Assembly: GCF_030295385.1 (NCBI RefSeq)
Contig: NZ_AP027079.1
Coordinates: forward strand, 868,001-932,000
DNA from: Geothrix oryzae
GTDB taxonomy: Bacteria > Acidobacteriota > Holophagae > Holophagales > Holophagaceae
Length of the DNA stretch: 64,000 bases
Direction: 5' to 3'
The notes under the pieces are model-generated. The model did no database searches, had not been told where the DNA came from, and saw only the letters and a program-made list of their open reading frames with translations. Below are positions 34,834 through 60,181 of the stretch, piece after piece. The stretch's first letter is position 1. Each line of letters starts with the position of its first letter. The position numbers and the translations under genes are program-made.

Positions 34834-34974
34834 GGGGACCAGGCGGGGCCAGATGACCAGGATCCCCCCATTCCCGGGGGAAGCCCAGGATAGACGGGAC
34901 CAGGCCTTTCAGGCGAGGCGGGCGCGCCCAAGGGGGCGGGACCGGCCCCGGATGTGCGAAACTGGAGGCCCAGG

Positions 34975-35016
34975 GTCCCGTAGCTCAGCTGGATAGAGCA
35001 GCTCCCTCCTAAGAAG
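34975..35016 (+). pseudogene. 5' half of tRNA-Arg(CCT), interrupted
   Basis: The sequence from 34975 has an acceptor 5' strand GTCCCGT, a D-arm GCTCAGCTGGATAGAGC and the anticodon loop CTCCTAA, then diverges: the anticodon 3' stem is GAAGC in place of GGAGC and no T-arm or acceptor 3' strand follows within 100 bases. This is where backbone gene content ends. It is read as the chromosomal tRNA gene broken by island insertion at the anticodon loop. Confidence 0.7.
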
Positions 35017-35132
35017 CCGGTGGCTGTTGGTGTGGCCCGGCACAAGTGCTATTTAAAATATTGATTTCATTGCCCATGTGAAAGCATAAACTACGGGGCC
35101 ACCGAGTTTCATTTCATGCCGACACTGTTTGC

Positions 35133-35377
35133 TAAGTGTTGATAAATTCGCCCCCATGCCAGCACGGTGGACCAGATTTGTACCGGTCCTTTCCGTCTTG
35201 GGTGGCTGGTGGTCCCGGCGGGAATTGAACTCACGACCTACCGCTTAGGAGGCGGTCGCTCTATCCGCTGAGCTATGGGACCGATGGCAGCAGTCCTCAT
35301 TCTAGCCTGATCTGGCGCTCATCGAGGTGAGTTGTGCGAGCGCTGGTCCTTCCATCTGGGAGGTGCTGGCCGGTCGA
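35133..35377. repeat. Left copy of the ~245-bp island-boundary direct repeat
   Basis: Matches 54484-54727 with an exact offset of 19350 from about 35141 onward; I count about 14 differences in 237 aligned bases (about 94%). The similarity extends more weakly upstream to about 35050 (TTTCATTTCATGCCG shared). The repeat contains a tRNA-Arg(CCT)-like gene plus about 95 bases beyond its 5' end, and thus looks like an attachment-site duplication. Confidence 0.85.
35207..35282 (-). tRNA. tRNA-Arg(CCT), left repeat copy, two stem mismatches
   Basis: Reading the minus strand from 35282: acceptor GGTCCCA, D-arm, anticodon stem ACCGC-CTCCTAA-GCGGT, T-loop TTCAATT, acceptor CGGGACC, A, and an encoded CCA. 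Compared with the copy at 54557-54632 it has A for G at acceptor position 7 and A for G in the T-stem, each giving an A-C mismatch. It may be a decaying copy. Anticodon CCT reads AGG. Confidence 0.75.
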
Positions 35378-37494: not shown

Positions 37495-38340
37495 GTGCTC
37501 TCTCCACCTACCCACGATCAACCGTTCAGCAGCCAGCATCCTGGTTGCATGCTTTTCCTGGTCGACCAGTCGACCTCCATGGCCGAACGCGTCACCGCGC
37601 CCAAGACGCCAGATCTCTCCAAGGCGCGGAGTGTGGCGAATCTGTTCAACAAGCTGGTATGGGATCTTATTCTTGCCAACTCGAAGGGAGAGGAGGTCCT
37701 TGATCGCTGCCATGTGGGGGTGATCACCTATGGTCATACCGGGGCTCGAACCGCACCTGGTTTCTCAGGGTTGATGCCGCTCCCAGCCCTGGCCACCTCT
37801 CCCAATCGGGAGGAGATCCAGATCACGCCCCGCTACGACGGCATCGGCGGGTTCGTCGATGTAGAGGTGAGATTACCTGTGTGGCTGGATCCCATGGCCT
37901 ATGGGAAGACGCCCATGTGCAGCGCTTTCCAGATGGCAAAGGCCCTTCTCGATCCATGGGTCCAGACACATCCGGGAAGTTGCCCACCCATCGTATTCAA
38001 TATCTCCGATGGAATCGCCACGGATGGGGATCCGCTGGCGGACATGCAGGCGCTCCAGAACCTCTCGACGGCTACAGGTCCCACGCTGGTGTTCAACATC
38101 CTCCTGGCCGGTGTGGACCGTCCCACAATCGCCTGGCCCACGGATTCCCAGGCAGTGGAAGCAGGGCCACTGCGCGGCATGATCGAGGGGTCCAGTGCAC
38201 TGCCCAATTCCATGAGATTGCGCGCCAATCAGGCCTTCGGGCTCCACCTCCAGGAGGGAGCGCGTGGGGTCGTGATCAACGCCGGGATCCTGGATCTGGT
38301 CCGGCTGCTCGACATCGGAAGCCCCGTCGCCCATGTCTAG
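37495..38340 (+). CDS. von Willebrand factor A domain protein 1 (TerY-like)
   Basis: A 281-aa single vWA domain. The metal site is complete: DQSTSM (DxSxS, about residues 24-29), Thr in GKTPMC, and Asp in NISDGIATDG. It starts with GTG (GAGG four bases before). It is a paralogue of the two vWA proteins downstream, but the most divergent (DQSTSM for DQSGSM). vWA proteins of this type are scaffold or target proteins in kinase/phosphatase triads. The stop overlaps the PP2C gene start. Confidence 0.85.
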   Translation: MLSPPTHDQPFSSQHPGCMLFLVDQSTSMAERVTAPKTPDLSKARSVANLFNKLVWDLILANSKGEEVLDRCHVGVITYGHTGARTAPGFSGLMPLPALATSPNREEIQITPRYDGIGGFVDVEVRLPVWLDPMAYGKTPMCSAFQMAKALLDPWVQTHPGSCPPIVFNISDGIATDGDPLADMQALQNLSTATGPTLVFNILLAGVDRPTIAWPTDSQAVEAGPLRGMIEGSSALPNSMRLRANQAFGLHLQEGARGVVINAGILDLVRLLDIGSPVAHV

Positions 38341-39223
38341 CATGCTCATCCTCCGGGCTCCCAAGTCCGACTACAGCCCCTCGACCTGCGAGGACGCCTG
38401 GGCCTTCCAAGACTCCGGGCAGGTGCGCCTCTCCAGTGGGATCGATGCCACGATGTTCCGCAGGTCCGGAGCTGCTCCATCTACCCTTGCCATTTCGGAT
38501 GGCGCCAGCACCTGCTCCGCCTCCGGAGCCTGGGCCTGCCTTCTCGCCAACCATGTCGTACAGACTGGACAAGACTTGGACTCGGCTGTAGAGCTTCCGG
38601 ATCGATTGAAACCCCTCCGGCAGCAGTGGCGACAGGCCGCGGAGGCGACCCTGAGTGCTCAGGCTTCGTGGAATGCCCGCGCCGCCCTCGAGAAGGGAGC
38701 CCATGCCACCCTCCTTCGGGTTCATCTCGATGGGCCCTGCTGGACGGCCGATGCCGTGGGGGATTCCAACCTCTTCCACATCCGACGGAAAAACCTCTGC
38801 CGGGCCTTCCCGGTCCTGGAGGCTGAAGATTTTGAGGCTGCGCCCTGCCTGGTCGCCAGTGTCGTCGGTTGGGACAATCTCCTGGCGGATGGGCTTCGGC
38901 ATGCCTCCGGAATCCTGGAATCGGGGGATGTCCTGGTCCTGGCCACCGATGCAGCCGCCCGCTGGCTGATGGAGGCCGAAGACTGGGCTTGGCCCGAGCT
39001 ACTGCTGGACATCCCCGATGCCGATCAGCTTTTCCTGGCGTGGGTACGGGAGGAACGTGCTGCCAGGCGCCTCAAGGACGACGACACGACCTTCGTGATT
39101 CTCCAGTGGTCGGGCTCATTGGACAACGACGCTGAGGTCCCTGTGACCCCCGGGCAAACTTGCGCCGACGCGACGAGCGAGCCGTGGCCTCCGAACCTGA
39201 ATACGAACCTGCAAGGAGAGTGA
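38333..39223 (+). CDS. PP2C-like protein phosphatase
   Basis: A 296-aa PP2C-fold protein. Expected metal positions are readable: CEDAWAF near the N-terminus, ISDGAST (DGxS in place of DGhG), AVGDSNLFH, LATDAAARW and the C-terminal DDDTTFVIL. It overlaps the vWA 1 gene by eight bases and is followed three bases later by vWA 2, so it is part of the same operon. Its substrate is likely the kinase or vWA proteins of the operon (inference from the TerY-phosphatase-kinase triads). Confidence 0.78.
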   Translation: MSSMLILRAPKSDYSPSTCEDAWAFQDSGQVRLSSGIDATMFRRSGAAPSTLAISDGASTCSASGAWACLLANHVVQTGQDLDSAVELPDRLKPLRQQWRQAAEATLSAQASWNARAALEKGAHATLLRVHLDGPCWTADAVGDSNLFHIRRKNLCRAFPVLEAEDFEAAPCLVASVVGWDNLLADGLRHASGILESGDVLVLATDAAARWLMEAEDWAWPELLLDIPDADQLFLAWVREERAARRLKDDDTTFVILQWSGSLDNDAEVPVTPGQTCADATSEPWPPNLNTNLQGE

Positions 39224-39226
39224 TCC

Positions 39227-40081
39227 ATGATCGGCGAAACTTCGACCACCCACGGCACCCACACGGCGGCCATCAGCCGCCAGAACCCTGGCTGCATCCT
39301 CTTCCTGCTTGACCAGTCGGGATCCATGGCTGGGTCTCTCTCCCTGCCTGACGGGACCGCCATCACGAAGGAACAAGGCGTGGCGGATGTCGTGAACCGC
39401 TTGCTGGGTGAGCTGGTGCTCTCCTGCACCAAGGGGGAGGAGGTCTACGATCGGTTCCACCTCGGGGTGATCACTTACGGCGAGGGTGTACGAACGGCCT
39501 CTGGTTTCGAGGGGCTTGTCCCGCTCTCCAAGGTGGCGAGCAGTTATGTCCATCTGGACAAGCGGTCGGCCCGGAATCCCGACGGCACCACGACCGATGT
39601 CGCCTTTCCGGTATGGTTTGTCCCAACATCGGGCGGAGGCACCCCCATGTGCGGGGCAATCCATCTCGCAGAAACCCTCCTGGAGCCTTGGATCAGCCAG
39701 CATCCCGACAGCTTCCCTCCCATCGTGTTCAACATCACGGATGGAGCCTCCACCGATGGAAGCCCTCTTCCGGGCCTCCTCGCGCTCCAGGCCATCGGAA
39801 CCGGCGATGGTCCGTGTCTGACCTTCAACTGCCTCTTGGCGGAGGATTCCGGTCCGGCCGTGGTCTGGCCCGCCGAAACCCACCAGGTTCCCAACGGCCA
39901 CCTCCGTGACTTGTTCGAGGGCTCCAGCATCCTGCCGGAATCCATGCGGGCCCGTGCGGCGTCTGTCCACAAACTGGCCTTATCCCCTGGTGCCCGGGGC
40001 GTGGTGCTCAACGCCACCCTGATGGACCTGGTGCGCCTGCTGGATATCGGCAGCACTCCCAATCCGGGTGGTGGCCGGTAG
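39227..40081 (+). CDS. von Willebrand factor A domain protein 2 (TerY-like)
   Basis: A 284-aa vWA protein with DQSGSM (about residues 27-32), GTPMC and NITDGASTDG. It is highly similar to vWA 3 (shared ISRQNPGCILFLLDQSGSM, GVADVVNR, SCTKGEEVYDRF-type blocks, GARGVVLNA end). Ends with LVRLLDIGSTPNPGGGR. AAGGAGAG precedes the ATG. The tandem arrangement indicates local duplication. Confidence 0.85.
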   Translation: MIGETSTTHGTHTAAISRQNPGCILFLLDQSGSMAGSLSLPDGTAITKEQGVADVVNRLLGELVLSCTKGEEVYDRFHLGVITYGEGVRTASGFEGLVPLSKVASSYVHLDKRSARNPDGTTTDVAFPVWFVPTSGGGTPMCGAIHLAETLLEPWISQHPDSFPPIVFNITDGASTDGSPLPGLLALQAIGTGDGPCLTFNCLLAEDSGPAVVWPAETHQVPNGHLRDLFEGSSILPESMRARAASVHKLALSPGARGVVLNATLMDLVRLLDIGSTPNPGGGR

Positions 40082-40169
40082 GTCAACATCCTGCCAATCA
40101 ATAGGGCAAATCGGCCCAACCACCTTCGGCTCCAGCCAGGAGCTTCCTCAATCATCCTCCGGAGTCTCC

Positions 40170-41024
40170 ATGGCCCTCGATGCACCCAGCCTCCGTGCCA
40201 CCCACACCACTCCCATCACCCGACAGAATCCGGGCTGCATCCTGTTTCTGCTCGATCAATCCGGATCCATGGCCGACCCCTTCACCCTCCCAGGGGAGCC
40301 TGAGATCTCCCGTGCGAAGGGAGTCGCAGATGTCGTGAATCGTGTCCTGATGGAACTCGTCCTCGCTTGTACCAAAGGTGAGCTGGTGTATGACCGCTTC
40401 CAAGTGGGTGTGGTTACCTATGGTGGAACTGCGGCCATGGCGCCCTATTTCCAGGGTCTCCGACCTCTTTCGGAGGTGGCGGAGAATCCCCTGGATGTGG
40501 AGCGGCGTCCGATCGTCAACCCGGGCGGGTCGACCAGTGACATCTTTTTTCCCTTCTGGTTCGAACCGCGGGCTGAAGGGGGCACCCCCATGTGTGAGGC
40601 GATCCGCATTGCCCATGGTCTTATCGCACCCTGGGTCGCCCAGTATCCAGAGAGCTTCCCGCCCATCATCTTCAACATCTCGGATGGTGAATCGACGGAT
40701 GGGAGTCCATTGGAGGGCCTGCGTTCGCTGCAGGCTGTGTCCACGCTGGATGGTCCCTGTCTCACCTTCAACTGCCTGCTCGCCAGTGGGTCCGGCCCGC
40801 AGGTGGTCTGGCCCGCCCGAGCTGAACAGGTGCCTGAAGGGAACCTCAGGGATCTGTTCGAGGGATCCAGTGTCCTCCCAGAGGCCATGCGCCACCGGGC
40901 CGCCGCCGCACACAAGCTGAGTCTGGAATCCGGAGCCCGGGGCGTGGTGCTCAATGTCGGGCTGCTGGATCTGGTCCGCCTCCTGGACATCGGAACGCCC
41001 GCCAATGACGGGGGCGCCCGCTAG
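40170..41024 (+). CDS. von Willebrand factor A domain protein 3 (TerY-like)
   Basis: A 284-aa vWA protein with DQSGSM, GTPMCEAI and NISDGESTDG, the same length as vWA 2 and differing mostly by conservative changes. GGAG lies six bases before ATG 40170; the frame is open to 40068 but upstream residues are not conserved between the copies. The 88-base gap to vWA 2 has no recognisable signal. It leads into the kinase gene 27 bases later. Confidence 0.85.
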   Translation: MALDAPSLRATHTTPITRQNPGCILFLLDQSGSMADPFTLPGEPEISRAKGVADVVNRVLMELVLACTKGELVYDRFQVGVVTYGGTAAMAPYFQGLRPLSEVAENPLDVERRPIVNPGGSTSDIFFPFWFEPRAEGGTPMCEAIRIAHGLIAPWVAQYPESFPPIIFNISDGESTDGSPLEGLRSLQAVSTLDGPCLTFNCLLASGSGPQVVWPARAEQVPEGNLRDLFEGSSVLPEAMRHRAAAAHKLSLESGARGVVLNVGLLDLVRLLDIGTPANDGGAR

Positions 41025-41051
41025 CTCCGGCCCCCCGAAACAGGAACCGCC

Positions 41052-42638
41052 ATGCCGATGCCATCCAATGGCGACTATGCCAAGGCTGTTCAGCAGCCCA
41101 AGCTGGTCTTCCAGAGAGCCGATCTCCAGGCGATGCTGCCGGACATGGGGAAGAATGGCACCCCCCTGAGCTGGAGTGGCGCCTTCGCCGTCGTGTTCAG
41201 GATGAACACACCCGCTGGCCGGAAGGTGGCCCTTCGCTGCTTCACACGGGAGGTCCAGCAGGTCCAAGATCGCTACCGGGCCTATGCCCGCTTCCTGGAG
41301 GGGGCCGTGCCTCCCATCCTGAAGCAGAGCCTCCTGGATGTGGAGTATTTGAAGGCCGGCATGCAGGTGGGGGTGACCTCGGTCCCGGTCCTTCTGATGA
41401 CCTGGCAGGAGGGCCAGGATCTTCTCCAGTGGGCCAGGACTGCTGCGAACAACCCCGGCCGGATCGAAGCCTTCCAGGGGCGGTTCCGGGCCTTGGCGCG
41501 GGCCATGCAGCAAGTCGGGTTCATCCATGGGGACCTCCAGCACGGGAACCTGATGGTCTCGCAGAGAGATCTCCCGGTCCTGGTGGACTATGACAATCTG
41601 CTGCTCCCGGGATCGCGTTCCCTCGGCGTCACGACCTTCGGCTTGGAGGGTTTCCAACACCCGGGCGTAGGGTCTGGGACACCTCATCATCTGCTCGACC
41701 GCCTGCCAATCCTGGTCATCGACACCGCCCTCGAGATCCTGAAGGTGAACAGGGCTCTCCTGCCTGGGTGGGAAACCATCGATGGGATGCTGTTCCAGGC
41801 TTCCGATCTGCGCCAGCCCAATGCCAGTGCGCTTTTCCAGGCCATGGAGGGAGAGCGCGCCCTTCAGGGTTGTGCCCGTCAGCTTGCGCTGGTACTGGCT
41901 GGGCCCGTCGACCAGATCCCCACCCTGGATGAATTCCTGAAGCGGGTTTCGGCCCATGCCTATCGGCCGCGCCTGATCTCCTGGAAACGCCCATCAGTGC
42001 GAGGCGCCTCCGCTGCTCCTGTGGCCGTCGCACCGCGGCGCTGGAAGGTGCCGGCCGCACCGTCAGGATTGAGCAGTCTTTCTCCCCGATTGGTCCAGCC
42101 CGGGCTTTCGTGGGCGCAAGCGAGCCTTCGACAGATCGGTCTGGGAGGCGCTCGGACGCCCCTGGTCTGGGCCATGGCATTGGCCCTGATCGTTGAGGTG
42201 GGGATGCACGCTTTTCAGGGGGGGCGCCCCGTCCCGACCGACCGCAGCGCCAAGACCGCCCCAGCCCGACCCGCTCCACTGCGGCTGCGCGAGGTTGGAC
42301 CTTCCAAGACCTACCCACATGCCTCAGGAACAACCCATCTGAGTGCCTTCGAAGTGCTGGAAGTACCCGCTGCCGGTACCTCAGCGGAACTTCCCCAGGG
42401 GGACGCCTACCTCCGTCCCTTCGAAGTGGCGGATCCCCCCAGCGCCCTGGATGAGGGAGCGAATACCCCCCCATCGCCAAGTCGAGGGGAGCTACCCGCC
42501 GAGCCTTCACCCGGAATGGGTCCTTCCAGGCGGCCATTGGGGAATCGGACCTCGCGGCGAGGTTTCAGAGAAGCCATGAGGGAGGCCTGGGAGCGGGGGC
42601 ACGCCCTCCTGACCCATCCCGACCAAAGGTTCAGGTGA
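41052..42638 (+). CDS. Membrane-anchored protein kinase homologue of the vWA/PP2C triad
   Basis: A 528-aa protein. Residues about 25-290 form a kinase-like domain: glycine-loop region SGAFAVVF, VALRCF with Arg in the place of the usual beta-3 Lys, the catalytic loop HGDLQHGN (about 160) and VDYDNLLLPG in the DFG position. A membrane helix (TPLVWAMALALIVEVGMHAF, about 375-395) is followed by a Pro/Ser-rich tail. The VALRCF form is, as I recall, usual in this kinase subgroup, so activity need not be lost. It ends the plus-strand operon. Confidence 0.8.
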   Translation: MPMPSNGDYAKAVQQPKLVFQRADLQAMLPDMGKNGTPLSWSGAFAVVFRMNTPAGRKVALRCFTREVQQVQDRYRAYARFLEGAVPPILKQSLLDVEYLKAGMQVGVTSVPVLLMTWQEGQDLLQWARTAANNPGRIEAFQGRFRALARAMQQVGFIHGDLQHGNLMVSQRDLPVLVDYDNLLLPGSRSLGVTTFGLEGFQHPGVGSGTPHHLLDRLPILVIDTALEILKVNRALLPGWETIDGMLFQASDLRQPNASALFQAMEGERALQGCARQLALVLAGPVDQIPTLDEFLKRVSAHAYRPRLISWKRPSVRGASAAPVAVAPRRWKVPAAPSGLSSLSPRLVQPGLSWAQASLRQIGLGGARTPLVWAMALALIVEVGMHAFQGGRPVPTDRSAKTAPARPAPLRLREVGPSKTYPHASGTTHLSAFEVLEVPAAGTSAELPQGDAYLRPFEVADPPSALDEGANTPPSPSRGELPAEPSPGMGPSRRPLGNRTSRRGFREAMREAWERGHALLTHPDQRFR

Positions 42639-42668
42639 TTGCGGGCGAGGCAGGGAAGGGCCTGGGCA

Positions 42669-43439
42669 TCAACAGGAGGCATTTGTGGCTCCGGTCGGCC
42701 GGACCTTCGGCCTGGCGTTGTCGGGCCGTACCTTCCGGTCAAGGGCTCTGCCTTTGGGGACAAGCCATGCGGCATCGAGCACCAGCACCCAATGAGGCAC
42801 TTTCATAAGCAGGGCCTTCAGGAACCCCAGGTCCAGCGTGCCCCGGCCCGGATCTGAAAGCGGGGCGTCCCAGGTGAGCAGGCGGGTACCCTCGCCACTT
42901 CCGAAGCCCAGGCCCGAGCACCAGAGGATGAAGGGGTGGACCGGATCGTGGTCATCAAGGAGGACCATCAGATGCTCCAGGATGGCAGTTTGGGTCGCCT
43001 GGTGGTCCACCAGGGTATGCACTTTGAATCCGCGTTCTTCAAGGCCAAGCCCGATGTACTGGGCGAGTTGCCTTGCGTTCCGTGGACCGGTGTAGTCGGC
43101 GGCCTGCAGGCTTTCCACCGCACCTTGGAAAAAGGCCGAGCCATAGGAGGCGAGGCCGATGCAGAGGGCCCGGCCGGCCCACAGTACGGGTGACCCGCCT
43201 TGGTGCCGAACCATGGGTGCCAGTGATGGCACCTCCGTGCGGACCACGAGCTGGATCCATTCCCCCACGGTGGCTCCAGCCGGCACGCACTCCAGGGCGA
43301 GCCAGAGGTCCCGTCCCAGCGAGCCCGCCCTCTCGCATCCTTGGTCCCGGATCAGTCGATCCACCGAAGGGGCCACGGTGAAACTCGAGCCCAGGCGGGG
43401 CCTGGGAATGAGCGGTCGGATGGAGGCGGGGTCGCCCAT
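42669..43439 (-). CDS. Caspase-like (C14) fold protein lacking catalytic His and Cys
   Basis: A 256-aa protein. Residues about 85-230 follow the caspase/metacaspase pattern: ALCIGLASYG, LQAADYTGPRNARQLAQYIG, RGFKVHTLVDHQATQTAILEHL split by position, then FILWCSGLG where active enzymes have SGHG, and WVLVLDAAW where they have LDACxSG. Both catalytic residues are thus replaced (Leu, Ala). It converges with the kinase gene and lies 108 bases downstream of the CARF-like gene on the same strand. Fold assignment is by pattern; confidence is moderate. Confidence 0.6.
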   Translation of the reverse strand: MGDPASIRPLIPRPRLGSSFTVAPSVDRLIRDQGCERAGSLGRDLWLALECVPAGATVGEWIQLVVRTEVPSLAPMVRHQGGSPVLWAGRALCIGLASYGSAFFQGAVESLQAADYTGPRNARQLAQYIGLGLEERGFKVHTLVDHQATQTAILEHLMVLLDDHDPVHPFILWCSGLGFGSGEGTRLLTWDAPLSDPGRGTLDLGFLKALLMKVPHWVLVLDAAWLVPKGRALDRKVRPDNARPKVRPTGATNASC

Positions 43440-43547
43440 GGGGAGGAGGCTCCTGGTTCTATTCCAGGGTCGTGCGTATCTCGTTCTGGTCCCGGAAAGA
43501 TAACCTTGCCCGCCCTCTCACGGTAGCCGCCACTGTGCCCGGGAACG

Positions 43548-44690
43548 CTATCGTCGGGAGAGGCCGAACCGGAGGGAGATCAGCCCCTGGGCATAGACAT
43601 CCTCGGCAAAGCCGAAACAGCCGGCCTGGGGCTGGCCCGCCTTGGGCTTTCGGCCCCAGCGGCTTTTGATGGTGAAGCGCTCCAGCGCCGGGTGGAGGTT
43701 CACGATCAGGTCATTGAGCTCATGCTGAATCGGGCCGATGGTCTTGCTCTCGGGTTCCACCCAGGCATCCACGACTCCGAGGAGCTTCTCCTCCTCATCG
43801 ATCCCGATGATTCCGGAGTCGCGCAGCCTCACGATGACCTCCTCCATGGCTGGGGCCATGGAGCTGCGGGGGATCGGTCCTCCGGCCTGGATCCACCCCG
43901 CCAGGAGCAGGCTCTGATGGTCCGATAGAACTGTGCTGGCGTCCCTTGCCTGATCGTCACCCCAGGCCAACTCCAGCCGGCTGGTCTTCAGGTCGAGGCA
44001 GAGGCGCGGGATGGCCGTGGCCTCATCGACGGATCTCTGGAGGCTGGTGATGAAGTCCTCCTCGAGGAGGCGCCTGGTGCCCGCACCCAGGGCGAAGTCC
44101 CGCAGGCGCACGATGGGGATTTCGAAGACGTCCAGCCGGACTTTGCCAACCAGATGGGGATGGGCCGGGTCATCGGGAAAGCCGTAGGCACCACTCTCCA
44201 GCACCTTCCTTGCTTCCTGGGGGAGATCTGGATCCGGTTGGAGCAGCACATGGAACGCCCAATCCTCCGGTCGGGCAAGCAGCGTCATGGCCTGCTGGAG
44301 GGAGCTGGACATAGTCTTGCGCCCACCGCTGATGCAGGCGATCACCGGGCCATCACCCTGCTCCTGGGCTACGCGGATCACTTCCCGGCAGGCCCGGTCC
44401 AGGGCCAGGGCCTGGGCCCGGTTGCGGTTGTCACTGGCCCGGAGGGGCTCATCGGCCCAGACGAGGGTGCCCTCAGCTCCGAGCCATTCGGCCGGTTTGT
44501 CCAACGCCCTGCGCAGCCGGTCCAGGGGGCCTTCAGAGGTGAAGATCTGCGCCACAGCCGTGGTCTTGGAGGCCTCGGTCCCGATGCAGGTCACCCGGTC
44601 CACTTCCAGGCCTTCCACCTGTTCGAGGTACCAGATGGCTTCGGTGAGAACGGCCGGGCTGGTGCCCATGGTTGCCACAAGCCAGGCCAT
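43548..44690 (-). CDS. CARF/ring-nuclease-like protein, Cas_NE0113 type
   Basis: A 380-aa protein. The N-terminal CARF-like Rossmann region has VATMGTSPAVLTEAIWYL (about residues 5-22) and VACISGGRKTMSSSLQQAM (about 117-135, after IACISGGRK), followed by HVLLQPD; these are the ligand-loop patterns of the Cas_NE0113 family of cyclic-oligoadenylate-binding CRISPR ring nucleases/Csm6-related sensors. The C-terminal half is not recognised and has no HEPN RxxxxH that I can place with confidence. No CRISPR array or cas gene is nearby. GAGGAGG precedes the ATG. Confidence 0.72.
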   Translation of the reverse strand: MAWLVATMGTSPAVLTEAIWYLEQVEGLEVDRVTCIGTEASKTTAVAQIFTSEGPLDRLRRALDKPAEWLGAEGTLVWADEPLRASDNRNRAQALALDRACREVIRVAQEQGDGPVIACISGGRKTMSSSLQQAMTLLARPEDWAFHVLLQPDPDLPQEARKVLESGAYGFPDDPAHPHLVGKVRLDVFEIPIVRLRDFALGAGTRRLLEEDFITSLQRSVDEATAIPRLCLDLKTSRLELAWGDDQARDASTVLSDHQSLLLAGWIQAGGPIPRSSMAPAMEEVIVRLRDSGIIGIDEEEKLLGVVDAWVEPESKTIGPIQHELNDLIVNLHPALERFTIKSRWGRKPKAGQPQAGCFGFAEDVYAQGLISLRFGLSRR

Positions 44691-44875
44691 CAGGTGTTCC
44701 TCCTCGTTCCGGGGTGAGCTGTTGGGACCCGTCCCTGGCGCGGCCCATCAGCCTGGGCAGACGGTCAGGGGTGCGGTCCCGGCTGATAGGGTTCAAGCAG
44801 TCAGACTACCCTGAATGGCCCCTGCCAGAGTGGCCTGGGCCTGGTTCAATGTGGCCAGTGGGCTTGGAGCCGAGC

Positions 44876-45670
44876 ATGGGGTGTGATTTCTTCTTCAGCG
44901 GCAACCTTCCTTCCCCTGAGCTGCAGGAGAAGGTGATTCGATTCTGGACCTCGGACCTTCCGGATCCACCGCGTCTGGTGGTTTCACCTTACGCCCTCCC
45001 ACCGGTCACCCCTCTTTTCATTGGGAGCCATGTGAACCGGGACCATGGCCTGTTCCTGGGGGGCCCCCAGGCATTCCAGCTCTTCGGTGTGATTCCATTC
45101 TCAACCGTGGGCGGAAGCCTTGTGGATCAAGGCCAGCTCGTCTTCGACCGGAGCCGCCGGGGCGCCCTGGTGCGAGTCCGCCGTCTTCCGCCAGTGTTTG
45201 GGCTCAAGGCCAATGACCGGGCGACGGATGGAGAGACCCTCCAGGCTTGGCTGAAGTCGGGTCGGGTCCAATGGACGGGCGGGGGGAGCCCCCGAATCGA
45301 TGTGGAGGTCGAAGAGGGCGGGCGCCTGCGGTTGCTCAGCGATCCCATGCCCATGGCCCTGCGGTTGAACATCATGCGGATCCGGTGGTGGCCGGATCTG
45401 GAGCATGGCGACGATGTGGAGATGTGCAGCTATGTGGCTGAGTCCCTCGCCGCCAATCCCGAGTTGGCTTCCAGCCTGCGGGATGAATCCATGGATTTCG
45501 ATGAATGCGAACGGCTGTTCATGTCCGTAAGACCCAAGCATCCGTTTGAGGATCTCGATCTTTCCTCACTCACTGAAGGTACGGAGGGTGAGGAATACCT
45601 GCGGCTGGCCAAGGAAGTGGAAGACCGGATGGCTCAATTCACCATCGACAGTGGGGATGAGGATCTCTAA
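44876..45670 (+). CDS. Hypothetical protein next to the CARF-like gene
   Basis: A 264-aa protein from ATG 44876 (GGAG seven bases upstream; the frame is open to 44672 but that part is not protein-like). It begins MGCDFFFSGNLPSPELQEK, has LFIGSHVNRDHGLFLGG, and an acidic tail rich in Asp/Glu. No signal peptide, no membrane segment, no family recognised. It is divergent from the CARF-like gene with 185 bases between starts, consistent with a shared control region. Confidence 0.6.
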   Translation: MGCDFFFSGNLPSPELQEKVIRFWTSDLPDPPRLVVSPYALPPVTPLFIGSHVNRDHGLFLGGPQAFQLFGVIPFSTVGGSLVDQGQLVFDRSRRGALVRVRRLPPVFGLKANDRATDGETLQAWLKSGRVQWTGGGSPRIDVEVEEGGRLRLLSDPMPMALRLNIMRIRWWPDLEHGDDVEMCSYVAESLAANPELASSLRDESMDFDECERLFMSVRPKHPFEDLDLSSLTEGTEGEEYLRLAKEVEDRMAQFTIDSGDEDL

Positions 45671-45674
45671 CAGG

Positions 45675-46034
45675 ATGGGGCACACCATCGAAGAATACTT
45701 TGACCAAGTTGAGCACCTCACAGCCAGTTACCAGCCAGAACCATGGTGGATATGGGATACAAGGGCCACGGTTTGGATTCAGGACGCAGCCAGGCCTCAT
45801 CGGCGTCACCGGAAGCTCAGCAAGATTCTCAAATGGGACCTACAGCGCAAATCCGCCATCGAGCCGGGACTGGGACACATGAAAGCGGGCGGGCTCCACA
45901 GAGGGAACTTCCTCAAGGACATGGTCGGGGACCTTCACGACATCATCCTTTGCGGCGCCTTACGCAACCTGAGGAAGATCCAGGCCGTCTCATGGGTCCA
46001 GTTGCCCCCTCTCAAAGTTAGGCAAGGAAAATAG
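45675..46034 (+). pseudogene. IS5-family transposase remnant, frameshifted
   Basis: Frame 1 gives GHTIEEYFDQVEHLTASY, matching the GHTLxETLEQVxxLTG block of IS5-group transposases. The expected VDxGYKGHG follows only after a frame change (from 45743), and the end returns to LQRKSAIEPGLGHMKAGG and NFLKDMVGDLHDIILCGALRNLRK, the usual RRxAIEPxIGHxK...NFL..GD..N...A..NLRK end. It is a 3' fragment with at least two shifts. The rest of the IS is absent. Confidence 0.7.
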
Positions 46035-46076: not shown

Positions 46077-47375
46077 CTATTTCCGAGCGCTTCTTATACT
46101 TACATGATCAGGATGGGGGTGTGTTTTAGGGCCGAATAAATAGCCCTTTTTCCAATTTGTTATAAAATCTTCAATTCTAATTGCTTTCTTGTCTAAATCT
46201 GCGATTTCTCGATTCTTGCCAGGATGGCACGCAGAGTTTCCATCCTTCCTGATCTCATCGAACCACTTCCAATCTGACTTACTTATGATACTAAACTCAA
46301 GTAAATCATTAATTTGTGATTTGAGTTTCTCTGAAGAAAATGCTGGTTTAATGATAAAAATATCACAAATTAATTCCAATAAGATTCTTAGATTTCGAGC
46401 GCAATCTTCTATATGCTGTCTTTTTAGATGCCAGTTGATCTCATCAATGTAATTTTTGATATCGTTCTGTTGCTGTTTTGTGATGGATTCCCAACTAGGT
46501 ATTTGAATAGAAGGCTTGGAGTTTGTCATCCTACCGGGAAGTCCAGTCCCTCGGATATCCGGGTTCCTCTTGATTTGTGCTTCTGCAAGTGGGGGCACTG
46601 CTCGCTGAGTATTATTTGCATTGGATTGCGAGCTTGAACTTTTGGCCACACCCTGAACAAAATCCACCTTGATTGGTGGTCCAGTCGGGGGGAGCTCCAG
46701 GGTCTTCTTGGAATTGCTTGAGGGAAGTGATGACGGATGGCCAGAATGCTGAGACGGTGGTGGCACCACGGATGCTGAATCCACATTTCCAGACCCCTCG
46801 GTGATTGCCACGGATTGGACTGGCTTTTCTTGCTTGAGTTGGCGGGGCGACTGGTTTGTCTGGAAGGCCTGGGGGACATGATGTGGTTCTGTGAGGCTGG
46901 ATTCTAGAATGGACTCATTTGTTTCTCGGGGCCCGCGATTGAACTTTGCCAGCAAATCGGCCAGCGAAACCCCACTGGGCTGCTTTGAATTTGATGACTT
47001 GGGGGCCGTTCCCGGTCCTACCCCACTCGACGGAGGCATGACAGTCTTGCTAGGCATGGTTCCACTTTCGATTGGCTGGGATCCTGCTGTTGCATCCTTC
47101 GGCAGAAGCTCTGTAATTTCCTTGGGGTGTGCCCCCGCGCCTATTACCTGCCCTGCACGTATAAGTTTGACATGACCAATGGAAAGGTGAATATCAACCG
47201 GCGGGAGTCTCTTATATTCCTCCGGTCTGATTCGTCTTCGAACCGAATCGCATTGGTCATCCGTCAAATTGGAACTATGGCTTTTGCCCGGAAGCCCAAG
47301 GCACTTTTCGATGCATTCGAGCACAACATGGTTGCTCACACGGAGTTCATACGCCAACTGATTAACCCGTAACAT
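46077..47375 (-). CDS. IF2_N-like / DUF4145-like two-domain protein
   Basis: A 432-aa protein in a stretch clearly lower in GC than the rest. Residues 1-50 (MLRVNQLAYELRVSNHVVLECIEKCLG, then GKSHSSNLTDDQ) match the IF-2 N-terminal helical domain (RVxELAKELGVSSKELI...KSHxSSLxD). A Ser/Pro/Gln-rich linker of about 220 residues follows. Residues about 310-410 (LKRQHIEDCARNLRILLELICD, FDEIRKDGNSACHPGKN) resemble the HEPN-related DUF4145. Function unknown; the composition indicates recent transfer. Confidence 0.6.
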   Translation of the reverse strand: MLRVNQLAYELRVSNHVVLECIEKCLGLPGKSHSSNLTDDQCDSVRRRIRPEEYKRLPPVDIHLSIGHVKLIRAGQVIGAGAHPKEITELLPKDATAGSQPIESGTMPSKTVMPPSSGVGPGTAPKSSNSKQPSGVSLADLLAKFNRGPRETNESILESSLTEPHHVPQAFQTNQSPRQLKQEKPVQSVAITEGSGNVDSASVVPPPSQHSGHPSSLPSSNSKKTLELPPTGPPIKVDFVQGVAKSSSSQSNANNTQRAVPPLAEAQIKRNPDIRGTGLPGRMTNSKPSIQIPSWESITKQQQNDIKNYIDEINWHLKRQHIEDCARNLRILLELICDIFIIKPAFSSEKLKSQINDLLEFSIISKSDWKWFDEIRKDGNSACHPGKNREIADLDKKAIRIEDFITNWKKGYLFGPKTHPHPDHVSIRSARK

Positions 47376-54483: not shown

Positions 54484-54727
54484 TAGTGTTGATAAATTCG
54501 CCACCATGCCAGCACGGTGGACCAGATTTGTACCGGTCCTTTCCGTCTTGGGTGGCTGGTGGTCCCGGCGGGAATTGAACCCACGACCTACCGCTTAGGA
54601 GGCGGTCGCTCTATCCGCTGAGCTACGGGACCGATCGCAGCTACCCTCATTCTAGCCTGATCCGGCGCTAATCGAGGTGAGCTGTGCGAGCGCTGGTCCT
54701 TCCATCTACGAGGCGCTGGCTGGTCGA
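54484..54727. repeat. Right copy of the ~245-bp island-boundary direct repeat
   Basis: Second copy of the repeat at 35133-35377, offset 19350, about 94% identical. It contains the intact tRNA-Arg(CCT) gene. Accessory genes continue beyond it, so it is an internal junction between two tandem island units. Confidence 0.85.
54557..54632 (-). tRNA. tRNA-Arg(CCT), intact
   Basis: From 54632 on the minus strand: acceptor GGTCCCG pairing fully with CGGGACC, D-arm GCTC-AGCGGATA-GAGC, anticodon arm ACCGC-CTCCTAA-GCGGT with anticodon CCT, T-arm GTGGG-TTCAATT-CCCGC, discriminator A and encoded CCA. All stems pair, unlike the left copy. It reads AGG codons. Confidence 0.92.
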
Positions 54728-55220: not shown

Positions 55221-56198
55221 CTACGGCCTGAGGCGATCTGCCCTCTCGCAGACCAGCCGCTCCAGCACGGCATCGTCGAGCCCCTGCCCCAGAAGCCCTG
55301 CCGCAGCCCTGTTGGCAGCGCCCGGGAGCTTGTCGCGGAGGAGGTCCAGGCGCTTGGTGAGGAAGGTCCTGTTGAGCCCGATGGCCTTGGCGCCGGATTC
55401 CAGGGCCTGCCGGTCCATGTCCGCGAAGCGGAATCGCCCATCGATGGACATGGCCATCCCCATGGACAGCCCCGGGTAGTAGACCGTGGAGAGCAGGTCG
55501 TACAGCGGGGCAAGGCGGATCCCCTTCGGTGTGAAGAGGAAGGAGAAGTTCTTCGCATGGGCATCGCCGTTGCCAACGATGAGGTTGAACATGACAGCGT
55601 CTATGAAGTCGCGTGCATCGGCGCCCGGCTTCTCGCTGTGGTCGAGAAGCAGCCTCCGGCACCGGGCCAGGCCGGGCCCCAGGTGGTTCTCGTACTTGTA
55701 GGCCGAGGTGAGGCCCAGAGCCTGGCAGAAGTCTTCCTGGTGGAGGCGGACCACCCTGCCGTGTTGGTGATCACGGTCGTATCTCTCTACAAGCAGAAAG
55801 GTCTGGAGGCCTCGCTCGGCGAACAGCCGTCGGGCCTCCACCTTGGCGACTGGAAGACCCATCTCGGCCGCCAGACGCATCACGAAGGCCTCGTTTGCCG
55901 TGGTTCCCGGGTAGCTGGGGATGGCGGGTTTCAGGATGTGGGTCGTGGGCTCGCCGGGGGCCGGGAGGCTCGCCTGTCGCTGAATGACGCTGAGGACAAC
56001 CCCGGGCGCGACCCCTGCCTTCTTGGCCACCTGCGTGAGCGGGATCCGGGTTCCCTTGAACAAAGCCCGGATGGTCTGGGCGTTCAGGCCGGGCAGGGAC
56101 CTAGCGGTTAGGGCAGAGGATGCCATCCCTCCGTTTTTGGTCGATCGGATGCTGTGGTTCGAAACCATGTGAACTCCTTGGTAGGCGCTCGGCGCCAT
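55221..56198 (-). CDS. HipA-like kinase with atypical N-terminus
   Basis: A 325-aa protein. The HipA catalytic part is clear: THILKPAIPSYPGTTANEAFVMRLA, the active-site region VMFNLIVGNGDAHAKNFSFL and LAPLYDLLST. Full HipA is about 430 aa; here the N-terminal beta domain is missing and in place of the glycine/Ser autophosphorylation loop region there is an HTH-like stretch (TIRALFKGTRIPLTQVAKKAG, VAPGVVLSVIQ). ATG 56198 or an internal ATG at 56126 could be the start. HipA phosphorylates a tRNA synthetase in E. coli; whether this form is active is open. Confidence 0.7.
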   Translation of the reverse strand: MAPSAYQGVHMVSNHSIRSTKNGGMASSALTARSLPGLNAQTIRALFKGTRIPLTQVAKKAGVAPGVVLSVIQRQASLPAPGEPTTHILKPAIPSYPGTTANEAFVMRLAAEMGLPVAKVEARRLFAERGLQTFLLVERYDRDHQHGRVVRLHQEDFCQALGLTSAYKYENHLGPGLARCRRLLLDHSEKPGADARDFIDAVMFNLIVGNGDAHAKNFSFLFTPKGIRLAPLYDLLSTVYYPGLSMGMAMSIDGRFRFADMDRQALESGAKAIGLNRTFLTKRLDLLRDKLPGAANRAAAGLLGQGLDDAVLERLVCERADRLRP

Positions 56199-56402: not shown

Positions 56403-57869
56403 TTAACGTGTCGAGCGCACAAGGCGATGACCAACGAGATGGCACCCTGTCTCATTAAGAACACGTTGCCATCCAGCTTGGGTGCCTATCGCTGATGGAT
56501 CGGCATAAAGCCCCCACTTTTCCTCTTGGGCTGTCAGTCGGTGATAGGTTTCCCAACGACTCGCACTTGTGGGAATGAACGTCTCTTTTCGATGGAGTAT
56601 GAAGCGATTCGTATGGTCTTTATAGTTCCTCCGTCGAATTTTTCGACCATCCAGCGAGACCACTACCGAGTCCAACAGCTCAGGGTGGGGATTCCGATCG
56701 AAATCCTCGTACGTTAAGTAGGACACTTGGGCTCCGTCCCGATGGAACTTGATCAGGTTCGCCCCTGAAACACCACCCACGAACGCTCTGGCGCAACCCT
56801 CATACAACCGAAGTACCGGTGGGAGTTCGTCGAGGTGATCGATGTGCACATACAGTCCCTTTGGCATCAGTTTTCCAAACGGGGATTTAGAAATGGCCTC
56901 TTCTCGCACCTCTATCTTTCCAATGCTCATGAGAAGGTTGTCAGCCTCTTCGCAGGCCCGCGTGTAAGCACTAAATAGCGCCTTGATGTCACGTTGGAGG
57001 AAGATTGGTAGGGTGGTGAATTGTGGCCGCATGTGAAACCTGGTGAGCGCTAGCCACACAAGCAGATCCAACCTGCGATCGGTCTGAATGTCGGCCCAAG
57101 GCTCATGACCCGTAACTGAGCGGATGACCTGGAAGGCCTTGGGGAATGACCCGAAGTGAGCCCTGAGGTCATCAATTAGGGGGAATTCATCCTCCTGAGG
57201 GAGCCTTCCCCGCTCCGTGAAAAATGCCATGACCGATTCGAGTAGAACTTTGTGTTCTTGGAACAAACGAAGTCGAGTAGAAACCCTTGGGAGAGCTAGT
57301 TTTCTCCTGAATCTTTGGGCTCTCCAGGTTTCTCGGACGGACTCGTCCCGGAAGACCAAAAATATCCCTGGAGCCATTGGGAGCGGATCCTGACCAAGAA
57401 CCTCCTGAATCCATTGTCGAAGCTCGGATTGTTCGTAGAACTTCTGGAAGCTACCGAGCCTGGTTACGTATCCATCTCCGAATGTGCCTGCACCTTCTTC
57501 GGGGCCGTCCTCAAGTGTGCATCGTGCAGAAACGATGAGCACCCGCTCGGTCAGTTGCCAGCATTCACGAATGACATCCGCACGCTCTTCTGGTGACTCA
57601 ATAACATTCAGTACATAGCCAAGATTTACGACATGAGATGGTGTCCGTTGCCCATGGGGGCGATGAACCGGGTCCCATCCCTCCACGTGCACCCCGATCT
57701 CACCTAACTGGCGTATGTCCTCGCCATGCCCACACCCAAAGTCCAACACGCGGACCTCAGGGGTGATGAGCCCATCCTGAACCGCCAGCCTGACGGGCTT
57801 ACTCATGGATTTCCGATGCAAGGCCGTCTTATGACGGGCCGATTCCCATCGAGAAGTGTCCGCGCTCAC
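56403..57869 (-). CDS. DNA phosphorothioation-associated putative methyltransferase
   Basis: A 488-aa protein of the type annotated with dnd loci (TIGR04096). It opens with ESARHKTALHRKSMSKPVRLAVQDG and has the SAM motif VRVLDFGCGHGED (about residues 38-50) then NLGYVLNVIES. The C-terminal two-thirds is a specific domain (GLYVHIDHLDELPPVLRLYEG). The start is GTG 57869, overlapping the dndA stop as GTGA; this keeps the conserved RHKTAL block, which the first ATG (57806) would lose. Its role in phosphorothioation is not established. Confidence 0.85.
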   Translation of the reverse strand: MSADTSRWESARHKTALHRKSMSKPVRLAVQDGLITPEVRVLDFGCGHGEDIRQLGEIGVHVEGWDPVHRPHGQRTPSHVVNLGYVLNVIESPEERADVIRECWQLTERVLIVSARCTLEDGPEEGAGTFGDGYVTRLGSFQKFYEQSELRQWIQEVLGQDPLPMAPGIFLVFRDESVRETWRAQRFRRKLALPRVSTRLRLFQEHKVLLESVMAFFTERGRLPQEDEFPLIDDLRAHFGSFPKAFQVIRSVTGHEPWADIQTDRRLDLLVWLALTRFHMRPQFTTLPIFLQRDIKALFSAYTRACEEADNLLMSIGKIEVREEAISKSPFGKLMPKGLYVHIDHLDELPPVLRLYEGCARAFVGGVSGANLIKFHRDGAQVSYLTYEDFDRNPHPELLDSVVVSLDGRKIRRRNYKDHTNRFILHRKETFIPTSASRWETYHRLTAQEEKWGLYADPSAIGTQAGWQRVLNETGCHLVGHRLVRSTR

Positions 57870-58996
57870 CGAAGCCCTAATAGAGCAGCTAGGACCGGGG
57901 TCCAATCCACAGGCTCAGTCAAATGGCACCAAGAGATGCGGAGGGCCTCTCGAATGCGGTCATCACCAAGTCCCATGCTCTTCAGGACGTGACTTGGTGT
58001 GTAGGACTGAGAGGTGCAGGCCGAGCCATTAGAAATGGCCACTAGTCCCTTCAACGCCACCATAGCTGCCTCCGAGCTCACGCCAGGGATGGACACGTTG
58101 AGCGTAGAAGGAACAAGCCGATCAGGATCCCCATTGATGGACGGATTCATCGGCTCCAAGGCTTTCAGCAGACCTTGGCGAAAGCTGAGGCAGGCTTGCC
58201 GACGAGGCTCGAATTCAGAAATGGCGATGGCAGCGGCCTCTCCAAGCCCTGCAACCAAATGGACAGGAACTGTGCCTGGCCTAAGCCCACGCTCCTGCCC
58301 ACCACCAAACATCAGGGGGCGGAGTGGAAGGCTCTTGAATCCGCGCCTCCGCGTGATCAAGGCCCCCACGCCCTTTGGTCCGAATATTTTATGACCGGAA
58401 ATGGAGATCAGCTCGATTCTCGGGTCCCTAAGGTTCTGGATTTCCTTGCCGAAGGATTGGGCGGCATCAACATGGAAGTAGGCCGCGTGGCCGTCGAGAA
58501 TTCTCGCCACTTGATCGATAGGCTGAATGACCCCTGTTTCGTTGTTCACGTGCATGAGCGAGACCAGAAGGGTGTCAGGTCGAAGAGCCTTCTGCACCTC
58601 CGCCGGATCAACCCATCCGCCCGCGGTCGGGTTGATCAGAGTGATGTCGAACCCTCGGCTGGCCAGCTCCTCTAGCGGCTCAAGCACGGCCTTGTGCTCC
58701 ATAGAACTGCTGATGATGTGCTTCCTGCCGTTTTCGGTTCCGTAATGAGCCAACCCGAGCAATGCCAGATTGTTGCTCTCCGTGGCGCCGCTGGTGAAGA
58801 TCACCTCCTCAGTCTTGCAACGCACCACGCTAGCTACCTGCTCACGGGCTTTTTGCACCACCTGCTTGGCTCGATTTCCAAACTCATGGGTGCGACTCCC
58901 CGCATTCCCGAAGTCTTCGACCAGGTAATTCCAAACCACCTCCTGAACTCGGGGCTCTAGCGGTGTAGTAGCGTTACAATCGAGGTACGTCGTCAT
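57866..58996 (-). CDS. dndA: Cysteine desulfurase DndA
   Basis: A 376-aa NifS/IscS-like PLP enzyme that supplies sulphur for DNA phosphorothioation. MTTYLDCNATTPLEPRV start, FTSGATESNNLALLG, MHVNNETGVIQP, the PLP Lys in ISGHKIFGPKG (about residue 202) and the catalytic Cys in NGSACTSQ (about 326). ATG 58996 follows AGGAG; the frame is open to 59116 through the dndB promoter. It diverges from dndBCDE, the classical dnd layout, and is followed by the methyltransferase gene. Confidence 0.93.
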   Translation of the reverse strand: MTTYLDCNATTPLEPRVQEVVWNYLVEDFGNAGSRTHEFGNRAKQVVQKAREQVASVVRCKTEEVIFTSGATESNNLALLGLAHYGTENGRKHIISSSMEHKAVLEPLEELASRGFDITLINPTAGGWVDPAEVQKALRPDTLLVSLMHVNNETGVIQPIDQVARILDGHAAYFHVDAAQSFGKEIQNLRDPRIELISISGHKIFGPKGVGALITRRRGFKSLPLRPLMFGGGQERGLRPGTVPVHLVAGLGEAAAIAISEFEPRRQACLSFRQGLLKALEPMNPSINGDPDRLVPSTLNVSIPGVSSEAAMVALKGLVAISNGSACTSQSYTPSHVLKSMGLGDDRIREALRISWCHLTEPVDWTPVLAALLGLR

Positions 58997-59011
58997 GCAG
59001 AGATCTCCTGA

Positions 59012-59052
59012 TTGACATTTTGACTCCGTACGTATCATATATGACGTAACGG
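59012..59052 (+). promoter_or_regulatory. dndB promoter with DndB-type palindromic operator
   Basis: TTGACA (59012-59017), 17 bases, then TCATAT (59035-59040) as a sigma-70-like promoter for dndB. A palindrome CCGTACG...CGTAACGG (59026-59052) with TACG at 59029 and CGTA at 59045 spans the spacer and -10. The published Salmonella DndB site is, as I recall, TACG-N10-CGTA; here the gap is 12. DndB would thus block dndBCDE and perhaps dndA. Confidence 0.6.
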
Positions 59053-59062
59053 AGCAATTGCC

Positions 59063-60181
59063 ATGGAATCTACTTTCACGTACGCCTTTCCCGCCATACG
59101 AGGAATCCAGGCACAAAGGGAATACTTTGTGTCGATGTGTCCCATGCGGATCCTTTCCCGGATCTTTGTATTCAACGAGGAAGAGGATATCCCCCCTGAA
59201 CTTCGAGCCCAGCGAGTTCTGAACCGAGGGCGTCTGCCCGAGATGGTGAGATACCTCCTGGACAACCCCACATCCTACGTATTTTCAGCCATCAGCGCTT
59301 CCATCGATGGCCCGGTTCGATTCGAGCCGTTGACTGAGAAGGGTGAAGGGCGGCGTATGGGCACACTCCACGTGCCGATGGATGCTCGATTCATCATCAA
59401 TGATGGCCAGCACCGGCGAGCCGCTATCGAGCAGGCCATCAAAGAACATCCTGACCTGGGGGATGAAACCATAGCCGTGGTCTTCTTCATGGACCGAGGC
59501 ATGTCCCGAAGCCAGCAGATGTTCGCAGATCTCAACCGTCATGCAGTTCGGGCCAGCAGCAGCATTGGCGTGCTCTATGACCAACGGGACCAGTCTGCGG
59601 ATATTGTGAGGCGTATGGTACTCAAGGCTCCAGTTTTTAAGGGGCTGATTGAGATGGAGCGTGCCACCCTGGCCCTGCGATCTCGGAAGCTCTTCACTCT
59701 GAGCTCTGTTTACCGTGCTACGAACAGCCTTCTCAGGGATCTTCCAGGGGCAGTTGAGGATCACCTTGCACTTGCAACCGCCTTTTGGATGGAAGTCGGT
59801 TCGCAATTCCCGGAGTGGGACGAAGTCCGTGAAGGGTCCCTCGCAGCTCAGGATGTAAGGACGGAATTCCTTCACAGCCATGGAGTCGTTCTTCAGGCCA
59901 TTGGGCGGGCCGGCAACGCGTTGCTCCACCAGGACTCCCGAACATGGAAGAGCAGGCTCAAGGCGCTCAGGAAGCTCGACTGGTCCCGGAAGAACCCCTA
60001 CTGGGAGGGACGGGTCATGATCGGCGGTCGTGTTTCGAAGGCAGAAGCGAATGTCATCCTCACGGTTTCGGCCATAAAGGGTGCTATCGGGCTCCCTCTC
60101 TCTGCGGAAGAAAAGCGCTTAGAGGACAACATCGCATCGTCTAGGACATCTTCTGCAAGGCAGGGAAAACATGGCCGGTAA
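59063..60181 (+). CDS. dndB: DNA phosphorothioation repressor/ATPase DndB
   Basis: A 372-aa DGQHR-family protein: TLHVPMDARFIINDGQHRRAAIEQA carries the family motif at about residue 114, with DLNRHAVRASSS following. DndB is a transcriptional repressor of the dnd operon that also lowers modification frequency; it is dispensable for the chemistry. GGAG lies eight bases before the ATG. The stop overlaps dndC by 11 bases. Confidence 0.93.
   Translation: MESTFTYAFPAIRGIQAQREYFVSMCPMRILSRIFVFNEEEDIPPELRAQRVLNRGRLPEMVRYLLDNPTSYVFSAISASIDGPVRFEPLTEKGEGRRMGTLHVPMDARFIINDGQHRRAAIEQAIKEHPDLGDETIAVVFFMDRGMSRSQQMFADLNRHAVRASSSIGVLYDQRDQSADIVRRMVLKAPVFKGLIEMERATLALRSRKLFTLSSVYRATNSLLRDLPGAVEDHLALATAFWMEVGSQFPEWDEVREGSLAAQDVRTEFLHSHGVVLQAIGRAGNALLHQDSRTWKSRLKALRKLDWSRKNPYWEGRVMIGGRVSKAEANVILTVSAIKGAIGLPLSAEEKRLEDNIASSRTSSARQGKHGR

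Follow-up and report, generated by a model that had tools for sequence, protein, structure and literature searches.

We have analysed a block of eight genes at positions 37495–45670 of a 64,000-nucleotide stretch of the Geothrix oryzae genome, hereafter the window, which corresponds to bases 868001–932000 of a complete 3.27-Mb single-contig assembly (NZ_AP027079.1). A TerY-P triad, composed of vWA, PP2C phosphatase and kinase genes, is adjoined here by genes for a caspase-like protein lacking its catalytic pair, a CARF protein and a 264-aa protein of no family. The reading that we prefer, although we hold it no more than evenly balanced, is that two neighbouring defence cassettes are stacked on one island integrated in a tRNA-Arg gene. 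The features of the block are as follows.

37495–38340, plus strand: vWA protein 1, TerY family (PADLOC TerY, 1e-49)
38333–39223, plus strand: PP2C phosphatase, TerY-P type (PADLOC TerY-P PP2C, 1.2e-26)
39227–40081, plus strand: vWA protein 2, TerY family (PADLOC TerY, 9.8e-55)
40068–41024, plus strand: vWA protein 3, TerY family (PADLOC TerY, 4.3e-57)
41052–42638, plus strand: TerY-P kinase with a predicted transmembrane segment (PADLOC STK_OB, 6.8e-49)
42669–43439, minus strand: pseudo-caspase, 256 aa (phylum caspase profile, 16.1 bits, E 1.2e-4)
43548–44690, minus strand: CARF5/Cas_NE0113 protein, 380 aa (Pfam, 3.8e-15; PADLOC CARF5, 1.8e-21)
44691–44875, no strand: divergent intergenic region of 185 bp, delimited by the gene coordinates and presumed to be the control region of the CARF and 264-aa genes
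44876–45670, plus strand: 264-aa protein (no match in Pfam, PADLOC, NCBIfam, PDB or viral contigs)

All eight open frames were confirmed at these coordinates and strands, and GC content by codon position is of the coding type in every gene, being highest at the third position and lowest at the second. The eight-gene layout given in the original prediction, which had been made from the letters of the window alone, is therefore correct in its frames, strands and coordinates.

The triad block extends from 37495 to 42638 as one operon in the order vWA-PP2C-vWA-vWA-kinase, the PP2C and vWA1 genes sharing 8 bases and an alternative start, ATG at 40170, being possible for vWA3. The residues of the metal ion-dependent adhesion site (D-S-S...T...D) are retained in all three vWA proteins. 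vWA2 and vWA3 are 63% identical, their genes contain a DNA repeat of 72% (39697–40050 and 40640–40993) and, in a tree, the three vWAs form a 100/100 clade separate from 60 other TerY proteins; three vWA genes were seen in no other surveyed triad locus. The PP2C protein matches Pfam PP2C_2 at just 0.012, with the acidic motifs SDG, GDS, TDA and DDD legible in its sequence. In the kinase, the catalytic domain occupies residues 1–300 and its motifs are kept (HGDLQHGN at 159, DYD at 179), followed by one predicted transmembrane segment near residue 370 and by low complexity. Described TerY-P variants can have a kinase with a fused OB fold or zinc ribbon. An OB fold was not matched in the window kinase, the STK_OB match covering only positions 1–298 of the 562 of the profile. 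As a transmembrane segment is predicted after the kinase domain in 70 of 96 related kinases, such a tail is ordinary, and the missing OB fold is a variant feature and not a defining one. The kinase is divergent, with a best identity of 35% across 78 loci and 25–30% identity to triad kinases elsewhere. Judged from its sequence, 37495–42638 is a genuine TerY-P module whose unusual point is the triplication of the vWA gene. The anti-phage triad of TerY vWA, PP2C and serine/threonine kinase is credited to Gao et al. (2020) in PMC7699616 and PMC11090510, and anti-phage activity of TerY-P has been reported against T7-like phages (PMC7699616) and against Autographiviridae in Pseudomonas (PMC10889362). 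Combined with the PADLOC matches, these reports bear out the earlier assignment of a vWA-phosphatase-kinase triad to a defence setting.

The CARF gene is the first gene of a two-gene operon in which the pseudo-caspase gene is the second. Its product matches Pfam Cas_NE0113 (PF09623) at 56.7 bits, over the cut-off of 23, and the NCBIfam cas_NE0113 equivalog at 60.0 bits, under the cut-off of 80.65; Pfam PF09651 gave no match. The CARF ligand motifs GTSPAVLTEA and SGGRKTM are retained. Comparison was made with 45 congeners and with 386–396 genomes of the same phylum, ranked as relatives, and the family was found in 26 of 396 phylum genomes. The neighbours of 14 of its genes in the phylum include many Cas10, Cmr4, Cmr6 and Csm3 proteins, and the nearest relative (genome G211, 34% identity) adjoins Cmr2 and Cmr3. 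Neither Cas10 nor RAMP proteins were found in the window's genome, a weak Cas10 match being rejected as a GGDEF-hemerythrin protein, and no CRISPR repeat array was seen in the window from 35000 onward. Viral contigs contained no relative of the CARF protein. Since its relatives in the phylum sit mostly in type III loci and the genome contains no Cas10 or RAMP match, the protein appears detached from type III CRISPR and has the look of a type III sensor that has been orphaned. A role in regulating transcription has been predicted for NE0113 proteins (PMC4012209), and the best PDB match of the family's C-terminal profile is to OmpR-type winged helices (E 0.0016).

The pseudo-caspase gene is convergent with the kinase gene, their stops lying 30 bp apart. 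A profile built from the caspase domains of the window's phylum matches residues 90–241, covering the whole p20 in collinear fashion, with an E of 1.2e-4 among 284 sequences searched; the score of 16.1 bits compares with 5.4 bits for the best of 250 decoys, and no shuffle competes. The catalytic dyad is lost, the His of GHG being replaced by Leu177 and the Cys of DxC by Ala224. The p10-like half is absent, as the protein ends 15 residues past the p20 match. No match was obtained in Pfam, PADLOC, NCBIfam or PDB, the Peptidase_C14 model matching another gene of the genome, and an AlphaFold model made from the single sequence, with no relatives, has a predicted local distance difference test score of 36. 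Relatives were found neither on plasmids nor among viral contigs, and no EACC1 partner was found among nine window proteins scanned (E up to 1). In vWA-MoxR systems, ∼70% of the caspase domains in the effector position are catalytically inactive, and inactive caspases have been proposed to be dominant-negative regulators or peptide-binding domains (PMC7159879).

The 264-aa gene diverges from the CARF gene. The intergenic region contains weak inverted repeats only (13 nt at 85% and 20 nt at 70%) and no sigma-70 consensus was found in its 185 bp. Weak matches of the 264-aa protein in two genomes (G006 and G026) were taken as chance, as they fall in a TolC-type-looking protein. Beside this gene, the C-terminal part of a plus-strand frame at 45546–46034 reads as the remnant of an IS5-type transposase, with no Pfam match. 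On the minus strand, 46077–47375, in a low-GC stretch (49%), encodes a 432-aa protein with an IF2_N-like start and a DUF4145 end. The original prediction had described a Cas_NE0113-like CARF protein, a caspase fold without its catalytic pair, called by eye, and an unknown 264-aa gene diverging from the CARF gene, and these descriptions hold: the CARF assignment by the Pfam score over the cut-off and the PADLOC CARF5 match, the caspase by the p20 profile match with Leu177 and Ala224, and the 264-aa protein in having no credible relative. The cyclic-oligoadenylate signal that it had also invoked is left without a source, since the genome gave neither a type III Cas10 nor a RAMP.

Gene neighbourhoods of related triads were surveyed by comparing a kinase alignment with 84,980 species genomes, which yielded 524 relatives. 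Of their loci, the 78 best were read with flanks of up to 10 kb, and seven further triad loci, from the phylum and from plasmids, brought the total to 85. As only 39 of the 85 have ∼20 kb of sequence, absences rest on 1.4 Mb in total. Most loci, from many phyla, contain a single vWA, a single PP2C and a single kinase gene. By phmmer, the surveyed loci contained nothing related to the caspase-like, CARF or 264-aa protein, and the CARF-family profile matched in none of the 85. The caspase profile detected a caspase domain in nine loci, seven of which are alike in encoding a ∼1230-aa fusion of an intact EACC1-type caspase and a superfamily 1 helicase (EACC1-type assignment for L067: NF047832, 1.3e-51). 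All seven are from Streptomyces or Kitasatospora, and the distance of the caspase-helicase gene from the triad ranges from overlapping to about 1.3 kb. The gene is upstream and in the same direction in L049, L056, L060 and L067, upstream and divergent in L037 and L084, and downstream and convergent in L055; an EACC1-like gene precedes it in some of the seven. Retention of this adjacency through three gene orders suggests that triad and caspase-helicase are functionally tied, as sampled in one actinobacterial family, and the pairing of triad and caspase appears to be a real theme. The pairing is named nowhere in the open literature searched, which did not cover the main Ter-system paper. The recurrent caspase-helicase is not orthologous to the dead caspase of the window. 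Several other neighbour clusters in the survey were dismissed as antisense frames.

The survey also revealed variation in the triads themselves. One locus from Obscuribacterales (L063, 9953–15703) has three tandem triad-type kinases divergent from a single vWA-PP2C pair, and several kinases are also present in other Melainabacteria triad loci. A small DUF4236 gene occurs in L041, L044, L054, L070 and L095, where it follows the kinase, and in L027. Its place is next to the triad kinase in loci mostly of Bacteroidota, and a single genome from the window's phylum also has it adjoining the triad.

Co-occurrence within the phylum was consistent with the survey. The triad kinase is present in 6 of the 396 genomes and the CARF family in 26, with both present only in the window's genome, where 0.4 such genomes are expected. 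In a set of 100 relative genomes, the caspase-like and CARF proteins occur in none but the window's own, and a further phylum search gave essentially CARF-family matches alone, a result in which weak relatives may be missed as two candidates per genome were scored. The combination of triad, CARF and dead caspase was observed in one genome only among those examined. Thus, the joining of the CARF protein with the triad, as originally proposed, fails in both comparisons, with no case in 85 loci and one chance-level overlap in 396 genomes. The joining of a caspase with the triad stands in part: caspase adjacency recurs in seven loci and three orders, but these are intact caspase-helicases and not orthologs. 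The expectation that CARF-like and caspase-like genes would accompany triads in other genomes is accordingly lost for the CARF gene and survives by analogy only for the caspase gene. Recurrence therefore does not support a three-part system, while its triad-caspase half has the support of this analogy.

The block lies within a 40.8-kb insertion in tRNA-Arg(CCT), extending from 35021 to ∼75836 in coordinates continued past the window. At the empty site, the tRNA-Arg gene is whole in two congeners, G002 and G015, whereas the chromosomal gene is broken after its anticodon in the window's genome. An 18-bp att (attachment) repeat is present at both ends, its left copy at 35004–35021 and its right copy at 75836–75853 in continued coordinates. 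The tRNA features within the window are as follows.

34974–35021, plus strand: left island end, the 5′ fragment of the interrupted tRNA-Arg(CCT) gene (comparison with G002 and G015)
35207–35282, minus strand: replacement tRNA-Arg(CCT), copy 1 (ARAGORN, Rfam)
54557–54632, minus strand: replacement tRNA-Arg(CCT), copy 2 (ARAGORN, Rfam)

Both tRNA-Arg copies sit in 297-bp repeats, 91% identical, which flank the region. Inspection of the listed frames by eye revealed no integrase. The same island carries dndA, B, C and D with a Dnd-associated methyltransferase gene (56403–63859), a HipA-like toxin kinase C-terminal domain between tRNA-Arg copy 2 and the Dnd genes (55221–56198, minus strand) and a gene for a HerA/VirD4-like ATPase, while genes for an SNF2 helicase, ParB and an ADP-ribosylglycohydrolase lie past the window. 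We class the region as a defence island. At its far end (L183, 8659–11126), a PP2C-looking protein without a Pfam match adjoins the ADP-ribosylglycohydrolase.

Two stacked cassettes, the reading to which we give even weight, are favoured by the triad families themselves, by the single-vWA triads of most of the 85 loci, with CARF in none of them, by the separate clade of the window vWAs and by the Cas10/RAMP neighbours of CARF relatives in the phylum, set against a genome with no Cas10 or RAMP match. The predicted regulatory role and winged-helix resemblance of the NE0113 family, the dead p20, the inactive caspases of vWA-MoxR systems and the island with its empty site and Dnd genes speak on the same side. 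Against this reading, the short distance of 30 bp between the end of the caspase-like gene and the kinase stop, together with the recurrence of caspases beside triads elsewhere, favours some functional link between the cassettes. In addition, the window CARF C-terminus does not significantly match the family winged-helix profile (E 0.75) and is diverged. One integrated eight-gene system, with CARF as the sensor of a nucleotide induced by phage, the triad as the relay of a phospho-signal and the dead caspase and 264-aa protein as regulated effector and regulator, could accommodate the closeness of all the genes, which lie within 8 kb with convergent stops, as well as the intact caspase-helicases within ∼1.4 kb of the triad in the seven Streptomyces and Kitasatospora loci with their three orders; furthermore, CoCoNuT super-operons take in both TerY-P modules and CARF proteins (PMC11090510). 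However, such a system is rather unlikely, as no CARF was found in the triad loci, the overlap of kinase and CARF is what chance predicts and transcription of the CARF and caspase genes runs from the other strand, separately from that of the triad.

It is also doubtful, and decidedly so, that the triad and pseudo-caspase constitute one unit, as may hold in Streptomyces, to which CARF came as a later, unrelated arrival driving the caspase gene. Adjacency is recurrent, including the convergent downstream case of L055, and inactive caspases are known in vWA conflict systems (PMC7159879), but the recurrent caspase is intact, of EACC1 type, helicase-fused and not orthologous, and all seven cases come from one actinobacterial family. 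We consider improbable to a similar degree a composite immune pathway in which a CRISPR-derived nucleotide sensor, now free of Cas10, and a dead caspase are joined to a triplicated TerY-P switch, the pseudo-caspase integrating second messenger and phosphorylation. There is little likelihood that the CARF, pseudo-caspase and 264-aa genes are stranded or decaying island cargo without current function: all three have uninterrupted reading frames with GC of the coding type across codon positions, and the CARF protein keeps its ligand motifs, against which stand their presence in the window's genome only, the absence of a Cas10 partner and the transposase remnant-like frame adjoining the 264-aa gene. 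That the 256-aa protein is unrelated to caspases, for which the lack of a match in curated libraries, PDB and Pfam and the poor single-sequence model could be cited, is highly improbable given a full-length, collinear p20 match well over decoys and shuffles.

If two cassettes are indeed stacked on the island, the first would be a TerY-P phospho-switch in which the membrane-anchored kinase and PP2C act on common targets, with the three duplicated vWAs as alternative metal-dependent sensor or adaptor subunits setting the phosphorylation balance, a balance that phage infection would tip towards phosphorylation and arrest. The second would consist of the CARF-pseudo-caspase operon and its divergent 264-aa partner gene. 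Its CARF protein, from the type III ancillary family NE0113, would act independently of Cas10, binding a nucleotide and serving as a one-component regulator of its operon and perhaps also of the 264-aa gene, and the dead caspase may be a binding or decoy protein and not a protease. Gene content, families, the loss of the dyad, the vWA triplication, the island borders and the lack of a Cas10 or RAMP match in the genome are shown by the data, while these roles are inferred, as are the ligand, binding to DNA and whatever cross-talk the cassettes may have. We know of no established target controlled by the TerY-P phosphorylation switch. The intact caspase-helicases by Streptomyces triads and the dead caspase here lead us to propose that caspase-fold proteins may be partners or substrates of triad kinases, and the presence of CARF where no Cas10 was found would raise the question of which nucleotide it senses.

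The block resembles several known systems, each with distinct differences. In common with the TerY-P triad, all three families are present with good profile scores, in an operon and with a transmembrane-anchored kinase, although here three vWA genes are split around PP2C, the OB fold is not matched and the kinase is at most 35% identical. The CARF domain, intact ligand motifs and similar length are shared with Cas_NE0113/CARF5 proteins of type III loci, from which the window protein differs in that no Cas10/RAMP was found, the C-terminal domain is diverged and the operon partner is a dead caspase. As in EACC1-caspase systems (PMC7159879) and the Streptomyces caspase-helicase loci, a caspase-superfamily protein adjoins a vWA-PP2C-kinase triad; in those systems the caspase is intact, helicase-fused and in some cases accompanied by EACC1, whereas the window protein is a dead p20 standing alone. 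Finally, although no McrB/McrC, coiled-coil, helicase-HEPN or Hsp70 gene is present among the scanned proteins and the CARF is of another type, the window resembles type II and III-A CoCoNuT super-operons in bringing TerY-P and CARF proteins together in one defence region (PMC11090510).

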